A stretch of DNA of 64,000 nucleotides. Source: Symmachiella dynata. GTDB taxonomy: Bacteria > Planctomycetota > Planctomycetia > Planctomycetales > Planctomycetaceae. Location of the stretch: the NCBI RefSeq assembly GCF_007747995.1, contig NZ_CP036276.1, positions 6,996,001 to 7,060,000 of the forward strand, read 5' to 3'. The notes beneath the pieces are model-generated. The model did no database searches and was not told where the DNA came from. It saw only the letters and a list, made by a program, of their open reading frames with translations. This document shows positions 23,299-30,347 of the stretch, piece after piece. The position numbers were made by a program, and so were the translations under genes. Position 1 is the first letter of the stretch; each line of letters opens with the position of its first letter.

Positions 23299-24258
23299 TT
23301 AGAGGCTTTCGCTGGATGTTTTGCTGAATTGGGTGAAGCGTTGGGCCAGTTCGTTGGGTGATTCGGTTCCGTTGATTTCTAATGCGCGGCATTCTTCTAA
23401 GTTGCGAAACCAGGTGTGCTGTCGTTTGGCGAATTGGCGGGTGCGGATTTGTAGGGTTTCGATTGCTGCGGGCAATGTGGTTCGCTGCTCCAAGTGTTCG
23501 ATGATTTCTTTATAACCCAGCGCCTGCCGCGCTGTGTTGGCCATCGGTGGTGAAATCGTTAAGAGTCCGCGGACTTCTTCGACCAACCCGACAGCGATCA
23601 TTTGCTCGACGCGGAGGTTAATTCGCTGGTACAGCCAATCGCGCGGTGGGGAGAGCCAAAATACGTTTGCGGGGCGTTGCTCGTTGGGCAGCGGGCCTTG
23701 TTGTTGTTGTGCGGAGAGCGGCTTGCCGGTTAGTTCGTGTACTTCTATGGCGCGAACAATCCGCCGCAGATCGTTGGGGTGCAACCGGGCAGCTGTGGCT
23801 GGATCGACTTCCGCTAATCGACGATGCAGCGATCCGGCGCCGTGCTCTTTTCCGAACTGGTCGAGTTGTTTCCGTAATTCCCAATCCGCCGACGGGCCTT
23901 CGAAGACACCCCGTAAGACGGCGCGCAGATACAATCCCGTCCCCCCCACAAACAACGGCACGCGGCCGCGATTGAGGATCTCTTCGCAAACGGCTTGCGC
24001 CTGGGCGACATAGTCCGCGACGCTGAATTCTTCGTGCGGATCAACGACGTCGAGCATGTGATGCGGGATGCGGGCCTGTTCTGCGGGATTTGGCTTGGCA
24101 GTGCCGATATCCATGCCGCGGTAGATGGCCATCGAATCCAACGAGACGATCTCCGCCGACAATTGCTCTGCCAACCGCAACGCCGTCGCTGTTTTTCCAC
24201 AGGCGGTCGGACCGGCCAAAAATTGACAGCGGGGCAAAATATCGGGCGAAAACTGCAT
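23299..24258 (-). CDS. miaA: tRNA dimethylallyltransferase
   Basis: The protein has 319 residues from ATG 24258 (MQFSPDILPR). It adds the isopentenyl group to A37 of tRNAs reading UNN codons. GPTACGKTATA (P-loop), LDSMAIYRGMDIGTAKP, FVGGTGLYLRAVLRG and HPNDLRRIVRAIEV are the family blocks. TRQFAKRQHTWFRN is the RNA-binding C-terminal motif. The frame is open to 24369 without similarity. Confidence 0.96.
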   Translation of the reverse strand: MQFSPDILPRCQFLAGPTACGKTATALRLAEQLSAEIVSLDSMAIYRGMDIGTAKPNPAEQARIPHHMLDVVDPHEEFSVADYVAQAQAVCEEILNRGRVPLFVGGTGLYLRAVLRGVFEGPSADWELRKQLDQFGKEHGAGSLHRRLAEVDPATAARLHPNDLRRIVRAIEVHELTGKPLSAQQQQGPLPNEQRPANVFWLSPPRDWLYQRINLRVEQMIAVGLVEEVRGLLTISPPMANTARQALGYKEIIEHLEQRTTLPAAIETLQIRTRQFAKRQHTWFRNLEECRALEINGTESPNELAQRFTQFSKTSSESL

Positions 24259-24454
24259 GAAAATGGCATCGTCAGCGGGAGAAACGGAGGGTGATCGTAA
24301 TATCTGCCAGCATAGAGACCCCGTCGGCATTTGGCCAGATCCTACGGCGGATGGCTGAATTGATCGCATCGCCTTCCCGAATCGGTTACTATGAGATCGC
24401 GCGTGAATTTAGACCGGACTTGAAGCACCGAGGAAGACAGGGCGAAATCTATCG

Positions 24455-24947: not shown

Positions 24948-25229
24948 ATGAGCCAACCTCGCCCCCCCAAACTGCCGGCCTCGCGTCGCAATTCGGAATC
25001 CAACGCCGGGACCTTGTTGGCCGTCTTTTTCATCCTGTTGCTTGCCGGGGGGTTCCTGGCTTTGATCGGGGCCGCCACTCAAACCGGCTTTTTCTTCTTC
25101 ATCCCCGTACTGCTCATCGCTGCCACGTTGGTCGGCCTGTTGCATTATCTTGTCTGGGGCCGGTTGTTGTCGCAGCGGATCATTGAGGAAGACGAAGCCA
25201 AGGCTCAATTTCCCGAGTCGGGCAAGTGA
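24948..25229 (+). CDS. Small two-helix membrane protein
   Basis: The protein has 93 residues: a basic, Pro-rich N-terminus, then helices at about 21-44 (AGTLLAVFFILLLAGGFLAL) and 49-70 (FFFFIPVLLIAATLVGLLHY), and an acidic tail EEDEAKAQFPESG. I do not recognise the family. It may be co-transcribed with the SRPBCC gene. Confidence 0.6.
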   Translation: MSQPRPPKLPASRRNSESNAGTLLAVFFILLLAGGFLALIGAATQTGFFFFIPVLLIAATLVGLLHYLVWGRLLSQRIIEEDEAKAQFPESGK

Positions 25230-25376: not shown

Positions 25377-25405
25377 TTGACAATCCCCGTTCTGTGCCGT
25401 ATTAT
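25377..25405 (+). promoter_or_regulatory. Consensus-like sigma-70 promoter of the cimA leader
   Basis: TTGACA (25377-25382) is a perfect -35. After exactly 17 bp, TATTAT (25400-25405) is a good -10. Start of transcription is expected near 25412, giving a ~295-nt leader before cimA. This is the best promoter in the window. Confidence 0.75.
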
Positions 25406-25449
25406 TAGAATTCTATACAGGTGACTCACTACAATTGCGGATTGCTCAG

Positions 25450-25545
25450 ATGTCACGGTTGCTAAACGATATTCGAACTCCCTGCAGCGGCGCTATTGGC
25501 GTGCGCATTGGCGAGATTATTATTGAGCAACCCCCGCGACCTTGA
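25450..25545 (+). CDS. Ile-rich leader peptide of the cimA attenuator (31 codons)
   Basis: ATG 25450 to TGA 25543-25545 encodes MSRLLNDIRTP, then CSGAIGVRIGEIIIEQPPRP. Six of 31 codons are Ile (all ATT), three of them consecutive at 25516-25524. Leu codons also occur at positions 4-5. It lies ~38 nt after the predicted transcription start and directly before a terminator hairpin and the isoleucine-pathway gene cimA, which is the setting of ilv/leu/his-type leader peptides. The stop codon lies inside the segment that can form the antiterminator. No clear Shine-Dalgarno precedes the ATG, which is common here. The peptide itself probably has no function beyond ribosome stalling. Confidence 0.72.
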   Translation: MSRLLNDIRTPCSGAIGVRIGEIIIEQPPRP

Positions 25546-25605
25546 GCACCAACGGTTTTCACACAACCTTCCACCCTCAGGTCGATTTGATCTGAGGGTT
25601 TTTTT
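25537..25605 (+). promoter_or_regulatory. Transcription attenuator: exclusive antiterminator and terminator hairpins
   Basis: Terminator: ACCCTCAG (25573-25580) pairs with CTGAGGGT (25592-25599) and runs into seven T (25599-25605). Antiterminator: CGACCTTGAG (25537-25546) pairs with CTCAGGTCG (25576-25584), nine pairs with one bulged U. The two structures share 25576-25580, so they exclude each other. A ribosome stalled at the Ile triplet (25516-25524) would cover sequence to about 25535 and leave 25537-25546 free to form the antiterminator. A ribosome reaching the stop codon (25543) would mask it and allow termination. I could not find a convincing region-1 partner. Confidence 0.7.
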
Positions 25606-25610
25606 GTTTC

Positions 25611-25697
25611 CAGTCGGCAGTCTACGGTAGACCGCAGGCAGCTCTTTATAGGGAGTCTGTTCTGTCTACTCCCCTCTGTCGACTGCCTACTCACACA
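25611..25697. repeat. Heptamer mosaic in both orientations between the attenuator and cimA
   Basis: The left half reads GTCGGCA GTCTACG GTAGACC. The right half is the same type on the opposite strand (GTAGGCA GTCGACA GAGGGGA GTAGACA). The two halves could pair loosely. Confidence 0.6.
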
Positions 25698-25706
25698 GGT
25701 TTTCGT

Positions 25707-27299
25707 ATGGCCCGGATACAACTTTACGACACAACGCTCCGTGACGGCAGTCAGGGAGAAGGGGTAAACTTTTCGCTGCAGGACAAGCTGCTGATTACGC
25801 GCAAATTGGACGCTCTTGGTTTTGACTATATTGAAGGGGGGTATCCCCTCTCCAACCCCAAGGACTTCGAATACTTTCAGCAGGCAGCGGAGTTGTCACT
25901 CCAGCATGCGCGGGTGTGTGCGTTTGGTATGACGCGACGTCGCGGCGTGACAGCGGAAAACGATGTCGGTATGCGCGCCTTGATCGATTCGCAAGCGCCG
26001 GTCGTAACTATCGTCGGCAAGTCGTGGGATTTGCACGTTGAGGAGATTCTCCGTGTTGACGAGGCGGAGAACTTGGCGATGATCCGCGACTCGGTCGCGT
26101 TCGTCGTCTCGCAGGGACGGGAGGTCATCTATGATGCCGAGCATTTCTTTGACGGATATCTCCACAACCCCGAGTTCGCCCTGGCTACGATTCGAGCAGC
26201 ACAGGAAGCGGGTGCCACGATGGCGGTGTTGTGCGACACCAACGGCGGCAGCTTGCCCGAACAAATCGCCCGCACAGTTGGCATTGCATGTGACACGTTG
26301 AAGATCCCCGTTGGAATTCACACGCATAACGATGGTGATCTGGCCACGGCAAATTCACTGGCTGCTGTGGCGGCCGGGGCGGTGCAGGTGCAAGGGACCA
26401 TCAACGGCATCGGCGAACGTTGCGGCAATGCCGACTTGGTCTGCGTCGCTGCGAATTTATCGCTGAAGCAAGAGCACGAAGTACTCGACGGTAAAGGAGT
26501 GCGGCATCTGACCGAATTGTCGCGGTACGTTTACGAACTCGCCAACATGAATTTTCGTAACAACCAGCCGTTTGTGGGCGCCAGTGCGTTTGCCCATAAA
26601 GGAGGCATGCACGTGCATGCGGTCAATCGCATCGCGCATAGTTATGAACACATTGAACCACAGGTCGTGGGGAACGTGCGTCGCGTGTTGGTGAGTGAAT
26701 TGTCGGGCCGGTCGAACATTGTGGCCAAGGCGACCAAATTCAAATTGGAGCAAGATGCAGACCTGATGGCCAAGATCCTGGAGCGTGTGCAGGATTTGGA
26801 GAGCGAAGGCTACCAATTCGAGGCGGCGGAAGCGTCGTTTGACTTGCTGATTAAGAAGGTGGCGGGCAATTACGCAGCAATGTTCGAGCGGATGCATTAC
26901 CGTGTGAATGTGGAAACCGACCAGAAGTCGCAACCCGTCACCGAAGCGACGGTCAAACTGCGGGTCCATGGCGAAGTACGGCACGAGGTGGCTGAGGGAG
27001 ACGGACCGGTCAACGCATTGGATTCGGCATTGCGGAAGGCACTCAACGGGGCCTATCCGGGACTGGAGGAGATGCATCTGGTGGACTATAAAGTCCGCGT
27101 GATCAACTCCACCGAAGGAACCGCCGCCCGCGTGCGGGTTGTGATCGAAAGCCGTGATAAAGAAGAGATCTGGAGCACAATCGGCGTGAGTGAAAATGTC
27201 ATCGAGGCGAGTTGGTTGGCGCTGGTCGATAGTGTGGAATACAAATTACTTAAGGATGCGGGGCATTTCGAAATCGAAGCCATGAGCGCCGCCGACTAA
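25707..27299 (+). CDS. cimA: Citramalate synthase
   Basis: This is a 530-residue member of the LeuA/homocitrate synthase superfamily of CimA type. YDTTLRDGSQGEGVNFS holds the catalytic Arg-Asp, GIHTHNDGDLATAN the metal-binding HxH, and GTINGIGERCGNADL is the CimA form of the conserved loop. The C-terminal ~130 residues are the regulatory domain of the family. It condenses pyruvate with acetyl-CoA to citramalate, starting the threonine-independent route to 2-oxobutyrate and isoleucine. The Ile-rich leader and attenuator upstream fit this role. valS follows on the same strand after a palindromic spacer. Confidence 0.93.
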   Translation: MARIQLYDTTLRDGSQGEGVNFSLQDKLLITRKLDALGFDYIEGGYPLSNPKDFEYFQQAAELSLQHARVCAFGMTRRRGVTAENDVGMRALIDSQAPVVTIVGKSWDLHVEEILRVDEAENLAMIRDSVAFVVSQGREVIYDAEHFFDGYLHNPEFALATIRAAQEAGATMAVLCDTNGGSLPEQIARTVGIACDTLKIPVGIHTHNDGDLATANSLAAVAAGAVQVQGTINGIGERCGNADLVCVAANLSLKQEHEVLDGKGVRHLTELSRYVYELANMNFRNNQPFVGASAFAHKGGMHVHAVNRIAHSYEHIEPQVVGNVRRVLVSELSGRSNIVAKATKFKLEQDADLMAKILERVQDLESEGYQFEAAEASFDLLIKKVAGNYAAMFERMHYRVNVETDQKSQPVTEATVKLRVHGEVRHEVAEGDGPVNALDSALRKALNGAYPGLEEMHLVDYKVRVINSTEGTAARVRVVIESRDKEEIWSTIGVSENVIEASWLALVDSVEYKLLKDAGHFEIEAMSAAD

Positions 27300-27422: not shown

Positions 27423-30347
27423 ATGACGACTGAACTGCCCAAGCAGTATGAACCGAAAGCCGCGCAAGAGCGGTGGTATTCGCAATGGGAACAGGATGGC
27501 CGGTTTGATGCCGATCCTGATCCGGAAAAACCATCGCATACGATCATGATCCCACTACCGAACGTCACCGGCGCGCTGCACATGGGGCATGCGCTCAACG
27601 GGACGTTGCAGGATTTGATTACCCGTTGGCGGCGGATGCAGGGCTTTGAGGCGCTGTGGATGCCCGGCACGGATCATGCCGGAATCGCGACGCAGTCGGT
27701 CGTTGAACGGCGGATGTTTGAAGAAGAGGGGCTGACGCGGCACGATATTGGCCGTGAGGCGCTGGTCGAGCGGATTTGGACTTGGAAGGACCAATACGAA
27801 GCTCGCATTCTCAACCAATTGAAACAAATGGGGGCCAGTTGTGATTGGCGGCGGACTCGGTTTACGCTCGACGATATGTGCTCGGTGGCGGTTCGCAAAA
27901 CCTTCTTCAAGTTGTTTCGTGATGAACTGATCTTTCGCGGCAAACGGTTGGTCAATTGGGATACCTTCCTGCAGACAGCGGTCGCCAATGACGAAGTGTT
28001 TCACGAAACGGTTCCCGGCCATTTTTGGACCTTCACCTATCCGGTGGTCGGCAGCGATGAGACGCTCGCGTTTTCGACGACGCGGCCTGAGACGATGTTG
28101 GGCGATTCGGCGATTGCCGTTCATCCCAGCGATGAACGTTATGCGCATCTGATCGGAAAAATGGTCAGCATTTCGGTCACCGGCCGCGAGATTCCGATCA
28201 TTGCCGATGGGATTTTAGTCGACAAGGAACTCGGTACGGGAGCGGTCAAAGTCACTCCCGCGCATGACCATAACGACTACGCCTGCGGCCAGCGCAATGA
28301 TCTGCCGGTCATCAACATCCTCAACAATGATGGCACGATCAACGAAAACGGTGCTCCCTATGAAGGGTTGGACCGTTACGAAGCTCGCAAGAAAATTGTT
28401 GCCGATATGGAGGCAGCAGGGCATCTGGTCAAAATTGAGGACCGCGATATTGAAATCGCGCACAGCGATCGCAGTAAGACGCCGATCGAACCGTATTTGT
28501 CCGACCAATGGTTCGTCGCTATGCAGGACTTGGCGCAATCGGCGATTGATGCGGTTGAGGATGGTCGCGTTCGTTTCTATCCAGCACGTTACACCAAAAC
28601 GTACAACGATTGGTTGGGCGAAAAACGAGATTGGTGTATCAGTCGGCAATTGTGGTGGGGACACCAGATTCCGATTTGGTATTGCGACACCTGTAGTGAA
28701 GCGGATCTGCAAGCCGCTTTCGGTGAGCGCGAGGATGTCTCCTATCGCCGCGACGCAGATGATACGACGTGGCTGATTTGCGGCGAAACCGATCTGGCCG
28801 AAGATGCGATGGGCGCTGAACATAAGTTGGTTCGCGATCCGGATGTTCTCGATACCTGGTTCAGTTCCGCCCTGTGGCCGCACGCCACACTGGGTTGGCC
28901 GGAGCAGACCAAAGACTTGGACTATTTCTATCCCGGCAATGTGCTGATCACCAGTCGCGATATTATTACGTTGTGGGTCGCGCGGATGGTCATCATGGGG
29001 CTGTACAACATGGGCGATATTCCCTTCGCGCATGTGCATATCCATCCCAAGATTTTGGATTCTTTCGGCCAAACGATGTCCAAGAGCAAAGGCAACGGCG
29101 TCAATCCGCTGGACATCATCGATAAATACGGCACCGATGCGATGCGGTTTACGATCGCCTCGTTCGCCGGCGAAAGCCAGGACGTCAAGATTCCGGTCGA
29201 CTACGAATGCCCCCATTGCGGCGGGCTGATTCCGCAGACGCTCAAGGATCAAAAAGCGACGCCCGACGGCGGCGAAAAGCCGCGAGTTACGTGTAAGCAG
29301 TGTAAGAAGAGTTCACAGTTCTCCAGCCCGTGGTTCGATCCCGACGAGGGAGAACCGGTTGCGCGGATCGTCAGCGAGCGGTTTGAGTACGGTCGTAATT
29401 TCTGCAACAAACTGTGGAATGCCGCTCGGTTCGCCATGTTGAACCTCGAAGGCTATACGCCCGGCGAGATTGCTCAAGACGAATTGCAGGTCGAAGACCG
29501 TTGGATTCTCAGCCGGCTGTCGCGGACGGCCGAGTCAATCAACGCGCTGTTGAGCGAATACAAATTCGACGCGGCGACGCGCGCTCTGCGTGATTTTGTC
29601 TGGAATGAATTCTGCGACTGGTATGTCGAGATGGTCAAACCGCGGCTGCGCGATGAAGAGGCGAAACCCTCGACGCAGCGGATTTTGGTGGGGGTGCTGG
29701 ATGGCATTGTCCGTTTGCTGGCGCCGTTCACTCCGTTCCTGACAGAAGAGCTTTGGGCGCGGTTGAATGAAATCGCGCCGCAGCGAGGCTTGTTCACGCC
29801 ACAACCAGCGGCCGAGAGTTGCATGATTGCCTCGTATCCTGAGTTCCCGCTCGACTGGCAGGATGCAGGGTTGGAGTCACGGTTCGCGCGGTTGCAGGAA
29901 ACGATTGTCGCTGTCCGCAACCTGCGTGCGGTATATCGCATCGCCAATGCGGTCGAACTGCAACTGCACGTCCGTTGCCCCGCGGGGGTCGCCGCGGAAC
30001 TGGATGATGTCGCTCCGCAATTCGACAATCTGGCCAAAACGAAATTGGCCGCCACCGGACCGGACATCGAACCGCCCCCGGCATCGGCGAGTTTTTCGTT
30101 GACCGATGCGGACGGATTTGTCCCGCTGGAAGGAATTGTCGACTTGGGAGCGGAATTGGAGCGACAAAAAGCGGAAGCGGAGAAACTCCGCGGGCATATC
30201 GGCGGCCATGAGAAGAAATTGGCCAACAAGAATTTCGTGGACCGCGCTCCGGCGGAGGTTGTCGAGGATGTCCGCGAGACGTTGGCAGGCCTGAAAAAAC
30301 AGTTGGAGAGCATCGAAACCATTGTCGCCCAATTGGGCGGGTCGTAG
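27423..30347 (+). CDS. valS: Valyl-tRNA synthetase
   Basis: This is a 974-residue class I synthetase. PNVTGALHMGHAL (HIGH motif, near residue 45), WMPGTDHAGIATQ, editing-domain blocks such as TTRPETMLGD, and MSKSKGNGVNP (KMSKS) are present. The C-terminal coiled-coil arm (LERQKAEAEKLRG...) closes the protein. Between KMSKS and the anticodon-binding domain lies a zinc-ribbon-like insertion (CPHCGG ... CKQCKK, about 29205-29310). It charges tRNA-Val, with editing of threonine. Confidence 0.97.
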   Translation: MTTELPKQYEPKAAQERWYSQWEQDGRFDADPDPEKPSHTIMIPLPNVTGALHMGHALNGTLQDLITRWRRMQGFEALWMPGTDHAGIATQSVVERRMFEEEGLTRHDIGREALVERIWTWKDQYEARILNQLKQMGASCDWRRTRFTLDDMCSVAVRKTFFKLFRDELIFRGKRLVNWDTFLQTAVANDEVFHETVPGHFWTFTYPVVGSDETLAFSTTRPETMLGDSAIAVHPSDERYAHLIGKMVSISVTGREIPIIADGILVDKELGTGAVKVTPAHDHNDYACGQRNDLPVINILNNDGTINENGAPYEGLDRYEARKKIVADMEAAGHLVKIEDRDIEIAHSDRSKTPIEPYLSDQWFVAMQDLAQSAIDAVEDGRVRFYPARYTKTYNDWLGEKRDWCISRQLWWGHQIPIWYCDTCSEADLQAAFGEREDVSYRRDADDTTWLICGETDLAEDAMGAEHKLVRDPDVLDTWFSSALWPHATLGWPEQTKDLDYFYPGNVLITSRDIITLWVARMVIMGLYNMGDIPFAHVHIHPKILDSFGQTMSKSKGNGVNPLDIIDKYGTDAMRFTIASFAGESQDVKIPVDYECPHCGGLIPQTLKDQKATPDGGEKPRVTCKQCKKSSQFSSPWFDPDEGEPVARIVSERFEYGRNFCNKLWNAARFAMLNLEGYTPGEIAQDELQVEDRWILSRLSRTAESINALLSEYKFDAATRALRDFVWNEFCDWYVEMVKPRLRDEEAKPSTQRILVGVLDGIVRLLAPFTPFLTEELWARLNEIAPQRGLFTPQPAAESCMIASYPEFPLDWQDAGLESRFARLQETIVAVRNLRAVYRIANAVELQLHVRCPAGVAAELDDVAPQFDNLAKTKLAATGPDIEPPPASASFSLTDADGFVPLEGIVDLGAELERQKAEAEKLRGHIGGHEKKLANKNFVDRAPAEVVEDVRETLAGLKKQLESIETIVAQLGGS

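Follow-up and report, generated by a model that had tools for sequence, protein, structure and literature searches.

The trp, his, leu and ilv operons of enteric bacteria carry ribosome-mediated attenuators. This mode of control requires tight coupling of transcription to translation, and the planctomycetes are a phylum known for unusual cell organisation. In Actinobacteria, the described leuA element consists of a leader ORF with a run of Leu codons and a pseudoknot, the base stem of which pairs with the Shine-Dalgarno box of leuA (excerpts of PMC1262725). In bacilli, a His-leader has been reported upstream of two hisS paralogues, and excerpts of the same article state that, to its authors' knowledge and leaving the ermC leader aside, no leader-peptide system had been shown beyond Proteobacteria and Actinobacteria (PMC2965389). 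A statistical peak of leader genes near structural genes has been noted in Planctomycetes, in a text whose excerpts do not contain isoleucine, ilv or leuA (PMC4833913). By title and start of abstract, no leader-peptide attenuation was recognised for cimA or in planctomycetes in the open-licence PMC literature, which omits most subscription journals; within that literature, the remark of the first-pass annotation that no such description was known in planctomycetes stands uncontradicted. Both the phylum and the gene would therefore, provisionally, be new to ribosome-mediated attenuation.

The window analyzed here is a stretch of 64,000 nucleotides from the genome of Symmachiella dynata, and all coordinates below refer to it. 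Upstream of cimA it contains an element that we interpret, with a probability of roughly 0.92, as a ribosome-mediated transcription attenuator that responds to isoleucine and controls cimA, probably together with the downstream valS, a reading drawn from sequence comparison and RNA folding.

Architecture of the element upstream of cimA

Every part of such an attenuator can be located on the forward strand of the window. A sigma-70-type promoter, TTGACA-N17-TATTAT, lies at 25377-25405 and matches the consensus at 11 of 12 positions. It is followed by an open leader reading frame of 31 codons, six of them for Ile, at 25450-25545, with the predicted peptide MSRLLNDIRTPCSGAIGVRIGEIIIEQPPRP; Ile clusters of this kind are seen again in relatives. 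Three ATT codons in tandem at 25516-25524 form the predicted stall site. No Shine-Dalgarno motif is evident by eye upstream of the leader ATG. The leader stop codon, TGA at 25543-25545, falls inside the 5′ strand of a putative antiterminator (25537-25546), and its first T is bulged in the minimum-energy fold. The 3′ strand of the antiterminator, at 25576-25584, is part of the 5′ arm of an intrinsic terminator (25573-25605) composed of a hairpin at 25573-25599 and a T tract, so the two hairpins share an arm and are mutually exclusive. The terminator thus stands between the leader and the structural gene, an arrangement that is the same in relatives.

The terminator stretch at 25570-25606 folds with -18.7 kcal/mol (z -5.5), and none of 200 shuffles is as good. 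The antiterminator stretch at 25535-25587 forms nine pairs with one bulged U at -14.1 kcal/mol (z -3.3), again unmatched in 200 shuffles. Since the terminator is the stronger of the two, switching between them must be kinetic. A 1:2 pairing is also present in the minimum-energy fold of the window, but with z -1.1 it is equalled by 26 of 200 shuffles.

The gene that follows, at 25707-27299 (+), encodes citramalate synthase (CimA), scoring 678 bits against TIGR00977 with a cut-off of 450. The finding points to a regulated entry point of isoleucine synthesis via the citramalate route. After a gap of 123 nt in which no T tract was read, valS (valine--tRNA ligase, NF004349) occupies 27423-30347 on the same strand and is probably the second gene of a cimA operon. 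It is noted that a miaA-like tRNA isopentenyltransferase gene (PF01715) lies upstream on the opposite strand, at 23299-24369 (-). Promoter, Ile-rich leader with its triplet, terminator and antiterminator with a bulged U, a shared arm and an internal stop codon had all been claimed in the first-pass annotation, and each was recovered; its further claim that the leader codons fit the product of the downstream gene agrees with the assignment of that gene to citramalate synthase.

A comparison of the window genome with the next species (G001) found no substitution in the 115 nt at 25492-25606, from leader codon 15 through the T tract. The flanks do differ: 16 substitutions fall within the 115 nt at 25377-25491, which run from the promoter through codon 14, and 10 within the 100 nt that follow the T tract, at 25607-25706.

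Recurrence of the leader in relatives

A search of 59 related genomes gave cimA-like matches in all 59, and no close cimA was seen in three members of the family (G010, G012, G025), in which the best matches had only ~30% identity. In a sample of the phylum, cimA was found at E<=1e-120 in 127 of 292 genomes. The upstream regions of 163 distinct Planctomycetota cimA loci were scanned. Duplicates (L065, L066, L067, L070) had been dropped beforehand, two genomes whose cimA matches start inside the gene (G106, G041) were left out, and three incomplete loci (L081, L108, L226) stay within the 163, counted as misses. To count as an Ile leader under a strict rule, an ORF had to span 10 codons or more, to end 8-110 nt before a hairpin with a T tract lying at most 650 nt from cimA, and to have two adjacent Ile codons and at least three Ile among its last 25 codons.

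This rule is satisfied at 59 of the 163 loci, whereas 40 rounds of dinucleotide shuffling gave 3.6 on average and never more than 7. When the identical rule was applied to other residues at the same loci, the next best were Ser (25), Ala (23) and Val (23). By taxonomy, the rule is passed by 40 of the 48 loci from the family of the window, by 9 of 26 from the remaining families of its class and by 10 of 89 from outside that class, where the other 79 fail; all seven loci of family f2 fail as well. Four further loci of the window's family (L008, L014, L018, L029) have leaders with 3-6 Ile codons and no adjacent pair, and no Ile leader was found at four of the 48 (L003, L015, L027, L036). At locus L003, from a genome listed as the same genus (G002), the 1500 nt before cimA contain no terminator and hence no leader-terminator pair, implying that the element can be lost. 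The cimA of L003 is 86% identical to that of the window, valS still lies downstream, and the leuA of this genome retains a Leu leader.

A second, named set of 80 loci is partly shared with the 163 and extends to other phyla. At 30 of the 80, a strong terminator follows a leader that has three or more Ile codons; an uncultured Gimesia and Gemmata sp. IIL30 (L161, a mixed Val/Ile leader) are two examples. A looser look added the Planctomycetota strain ZRK32. Ile leaders were recognised by eye in Rhodopirellula (L167), Rubripirellula obstinata (L172) and Stieleria sedimenti (L175), the last requiring a GTG start. It should be mentioned that the first detector restricted the gap between stop codon and terminator and missed these three loci, where the gap is ~80 nt; its T-tract rule also missed L022 and L057, both recovered later. 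No terminator was found upstream of cimA in Singulisphaera sp. GP187 (L158) and Aquisphaera insulae (L159), and a metagenome-assembled genome labelled Singulisphaera sp. GP187 (L151) does carry an Ile/Val leader. At L017, an extra ORF, which we take to resemble a 23S-rRNA-intervening-sequence four-helix protein, lies between the leader/terminator and cimA, which stand about 430 nt apart.

A promoter match of at least 9 of 12 positions was found upstream of 38 of 54 leaders from relatives, compared to 6.8% of shuffles; no match was found in 3 of the 54.

Covariation of the antiterminator and pairing of the stop codon

The 54 leaders used here and below are the 59 strict-rule leaders after collapsing identical 33-nt ends. 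The mean energy of pairing between their cognate antiterminator strands and terminator arms is -19.07 kcal/mol; permuting the arms between loci gives -14.24 ± 0.43 kcal/mol, and none of 5000 permutations reaches the cognate value. When each distinct arm is represented by a single locus (n = 43), the values are -19.02 and -13.73 ± 0.49 kcal/mol. Dinucleotide shuffles of single loci gave p < 0.05 for 52 of 65 antiterminators, the remaining 13 failing to reach this level.

The stop codon takes part in this pairing. All three of its bases are paired in 24 of 32 TGA leaders, 7 of 15 TAG leaders and none of 7 TAA leaders. Where the second base of the stop codon is paired, the pair is G-C in 26 cases and A-U in 8; for the third base, it is A-U in 26 and G-C or G-U in 13. 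Because the stop bases are paired in both the TGA and the TAG classes, the identity of the stop codon and the sequence of the terminator change together.

The first-pass annotation had made its reading depend on conservation in relatives, covariation of the hairpins and overlap with the stop codon. Ile-rich leaders, terminators and stop-overlapping antiterminators recur before cimA across much of Planctomycetia, with strict-rule loci well beyond the shuffle maximum. The antiterminator stems covary, cognate pairing exceeding permuted pairing, and the stop codon lies within the stem in many relatives. Taken together, recurrence and covarying stems lend strong support to the proposed isoleucine-responsive attenuator.

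Leu leaders upstream of leuA, and a survey of other amino-acid genes

As a control for specificity, 20 leuA loci (L232-L251) from the window's own genome and related genomes, G002 included, were considered; they are part of the LeuA-like matches in these genomes, and all 20 genes score as 2-isopropylmalate synthase above the curated cut-off of TIGR00973. Leaders rich in Leu codons precede a terminator at 17 of the 20, with 5-9 Leu and 0-1 Ile codons each, compared to averages of 5.4 Ile and 1.1 Leu in the cimA leaders. The short ORF thus has clustered codons for the end product in both cases, Ile for cimA and Leu for leuA. The leuA leader of the window genome (L232, G000:C1:3368704-3369454) ends with ...MFRFLLLNLALRLSLLTEGRG, and many leuA leaders have their stop codon in the antiterminator. 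Cognate pairing at leuA is -20.3 against -17.5 ± 0.8 for permuted arms; the lowest permutation, -20.8, passes the cognate mean, and covariation is therefore weaker for leuA than for cimA. An Ile or Val leader was found at 0 of 24 ilvB loci, one of which satisfies the Leu rule and is taken as background; a Trp leader was found at 0 of 30 trpE/pabB loci and a His leader at 0 of 25 hisG loci, with 6 of these 79 loci clipped at contig ends, where the upstream slices may be off.

These data bear on a rival account, in which the hairpin would be the ordinary 3′ terminator of the upstream gene and the short ORF would have arisen by chance. A forward-strand ORF does end upstream, at 25229, and intergenic terminators are common. 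We nevertheless regard this account as highly improbable, as the promoter sits between that ORF and the hairpin, the Ile-rich ORF recurs far above shuffled expectation, a plain terminator needs no covarying antiterminator strand, and the leader before leuA is rich in Leu instead.

Codon use and the sequence of the leader peptide

Runs of Ile dominate the leaders. A qualifying ORF and a terminator are both present at 69 loci, of which 53 have Ile runs of at least two, 23 of at least three and 10 of at least four; for any other residue, the corresponding counts are at most 20, 4 and 0. In 87 distinct leaders, three of which are deltaproteobacterial candidates, Ile codons are commonest 7-11 codons before the stop. 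Counted together, their Ile codons are 282 ATT, 152 ATC and 8 ATA, whereas the cimA genes themselves (loci L132-L178) show the reverse preference, with 884 ATC, 243 ATT and 24 ATA.

It could be argued that the peptide itself matters, as an arrest peptide or a small functional protein, and the leader frame is indeed kept without gaps between the window genome and G001. This possibility is remote. The peptides of different genera look unrelated except for the Ile clusters at their preferred distance from the stop, and the preference for ATT in leaders against ATC in cimA suggests that it is the codons that count. Control of the terminator by a metabolite- or tRNA-sensing RNA, with an incidental ORF, is the most improbable of the alternatives: T-boxes are known alternative sensors of amino-acid genes, but neither they nor other Rfam leader families reached the gathering score in the window, where the best match by E-value was at chance level (14.9 bits, E 0.68, gathering score 49.5), or at 20 other cimA loci. 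Rfam found nothing at the gathering score at 20 further loci, mostly from other phyla, and T-boxes are therefore not shown there.

Ribosome position and the proposed mechanism

The reach of the ribosome on the leader was modelled by assuming a leading edge 12 nt past the first base of the A-site codon. In 37 of 54 leaders, the antiterminator strand is then entirely clear of a ribosome that stands on the last Ile codon, and all 54 have at least one Ile codon at which a stall keeps the whole strand clear. At the stop codon, the ribosome overlaps the strand in 53 of 54. Upon folding of the nascent RNA downstream of the ribosome, the mean number of antiterminator pairs is 10.8 for a ribosome stalled at the last adjacent Ile pair, 2.5 for one at the stop codon and 6.8 without a ribosome. 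This in silico folding, which has no shuffled control, gives more antiterminator pairs for the stalled ribosome than for the ribosome at the stop in 54 of 54 leaders, and for the element in the window the values are 9.0 and 1.1. In silico, the position of the ribosome thus decides which hairpin can form. Blocking is incomplete in 6 of the 54, where the terminating ribosome still leaves at least six antiterminator pairs. The 1:2 pause or protector hairpin has a mean z of -0.56, with z below -2 in 11 of 54 leaders, and is unsupported as a general part; the design is accordingly nearer to two hairpins than to the three of the enteric systems.

We propose the following scheme. Transcription would start ~38 nt upstream of the leader ATG, as judged from the promoter. 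With charged Ile-tRNA present, the leading ribosome would pass the Ile codons and terminate at the TGA at 25543, where its footprint would cover the 5′ strand of the antiterminator; the hairpin at 25573-25599 could then form, and RNA polymerase would stop in the T tract. A shortage of charged Ile-tRNA is predicted to stall the ribosome at 25516-25524. With the last Ile codon in the A site, the leading edge of the ribosome would reach ~25534, a few nucleotides before the antiterminator strand begins at 25537, and the strand, left free, could pair with the emerging 5′ arm of the terminator, allowing transcription to continue into cimA. Leader translation, stalling, the efficiency of termination and the response to isoleucine are all predictions of this scheme.

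Val codons, valS and deltaproteobacterial loci

In a set of 131 loci, which holds duplicates, other phyla and incomplete loci, valS lies downstream of cimA in 75. Leaders from this set average 2.9 Val codons with valS next (n = 42) compared to 1.3 without it (n = 23), kinship being ignored. For hand-picked Planctomycetaceae-like loci with similar peptides collapsed, the averages are 2.6 and 0.83 (n = 20 and 12; Mann-Whitney p = 4e-4, kinship ignored); before collapsing, the same comparison gives p = 2.7e-5, likewise with kinship ignored. Mixed Val/Ile leaders of cimA were observed at L042, L046, L047, L049, L150 (...VIGVVVVITTG), L155 and L161, and in family f5 at L037, L045 and L048.

A wider reading joins these observations, and we offer it tentatively, at somewhat less than even odds. 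Planctomycete branched-chain supply may be governed by compact two-hairpin attenuators on the paralogous CimA and LeuA, with the stop codon base-paired in the antiterminator and the codons of each leader matched to its entire operon. Ile codons would serve cimA and Leu codons leuA, and additional Val codons where valS follows would make the leader a dual Ile/Val sensor. As a 1:2 hairpin is not a general part, readthrough would be expected to rise, and not to vanish, once the leader is no longer translated.

Genomes near a deltaproteobacterial metagenome-assembled genome (G333, locus L200) were also searched. Of 60 such genomes, 49 have cimA, and the best 30 of the 49 were examined. An Ile-rich leader precedes a terminator at 29 of these best 30 loci (L347, L350-L378), against a shuffle mean of 3.7 and a maximum of 6; one of the leaders, at L375, is weak. 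The core of the terminator differs from the planctomycete one and is often AATCCGTTATCAGG. The frequency of Ile leaders among the best 30 of 49 loci implies that attenuation of cimA probably exists in at least two distant groups, leaving a convergent or a very old origin open to study.

Comparison with known attenuators

Judged by the placement of the terminator, the clustered end-product codons, the mutually exclusive antiterminator with its covariation and the modelled effect of ribosome position, the element belongs to ribosome-mediated attenuation by every sequence-level criterion tested. Ribosome-mediated attenuation would be extended to planctomycetes, and the element would offer a direct reporter of transcription-translation coupling in this phylum. 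Many natural variants, with Ile, Leu and Val codons and with UGA and UAG stops in the stem, would allow the joint evolution of codons, stop codon and terminator to be followed.

Like the enteric attenuators, the planctomycete element has a short leader ORF with runs of end-product codons, a stop codon near the antiterminator strand, and an intrinsic terminator with a T tract, and it precedes a biosynthetic gene for the amino acid that the leader encodes. It differs from them in belonging to another phylum and in regulating cimA of the citramalate route. The planctomycete 1:2 hairpin is not generally supported (mean z -0.56), and the planctomycete stop codon lies within the antiterminator stem in many species.

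As described in excerpts of PMC1262725, the actinobacterial trp and leuS attenuators share with it the repeated regulatory codons, the alternative terminator and antiterminator hairpins and an occurrence outside Proteobacteria; the amino acids and genes of the planctomycete systems are different. Planctomycete leuA combines a Leu leader with an intrinsic terminator, in contrast to the pseudoknot of actinobacterial leuA (excerpts of PMC1262725). The His-leader upstream of hisS in bacilli is, as here, a leader-peptide system in another phylum; according to excerpts of PMC2965389, its His codons control genes for aminoacyl-tRNA synthetases, whereas the first gene of the planctomycete unit is biosynthetic.
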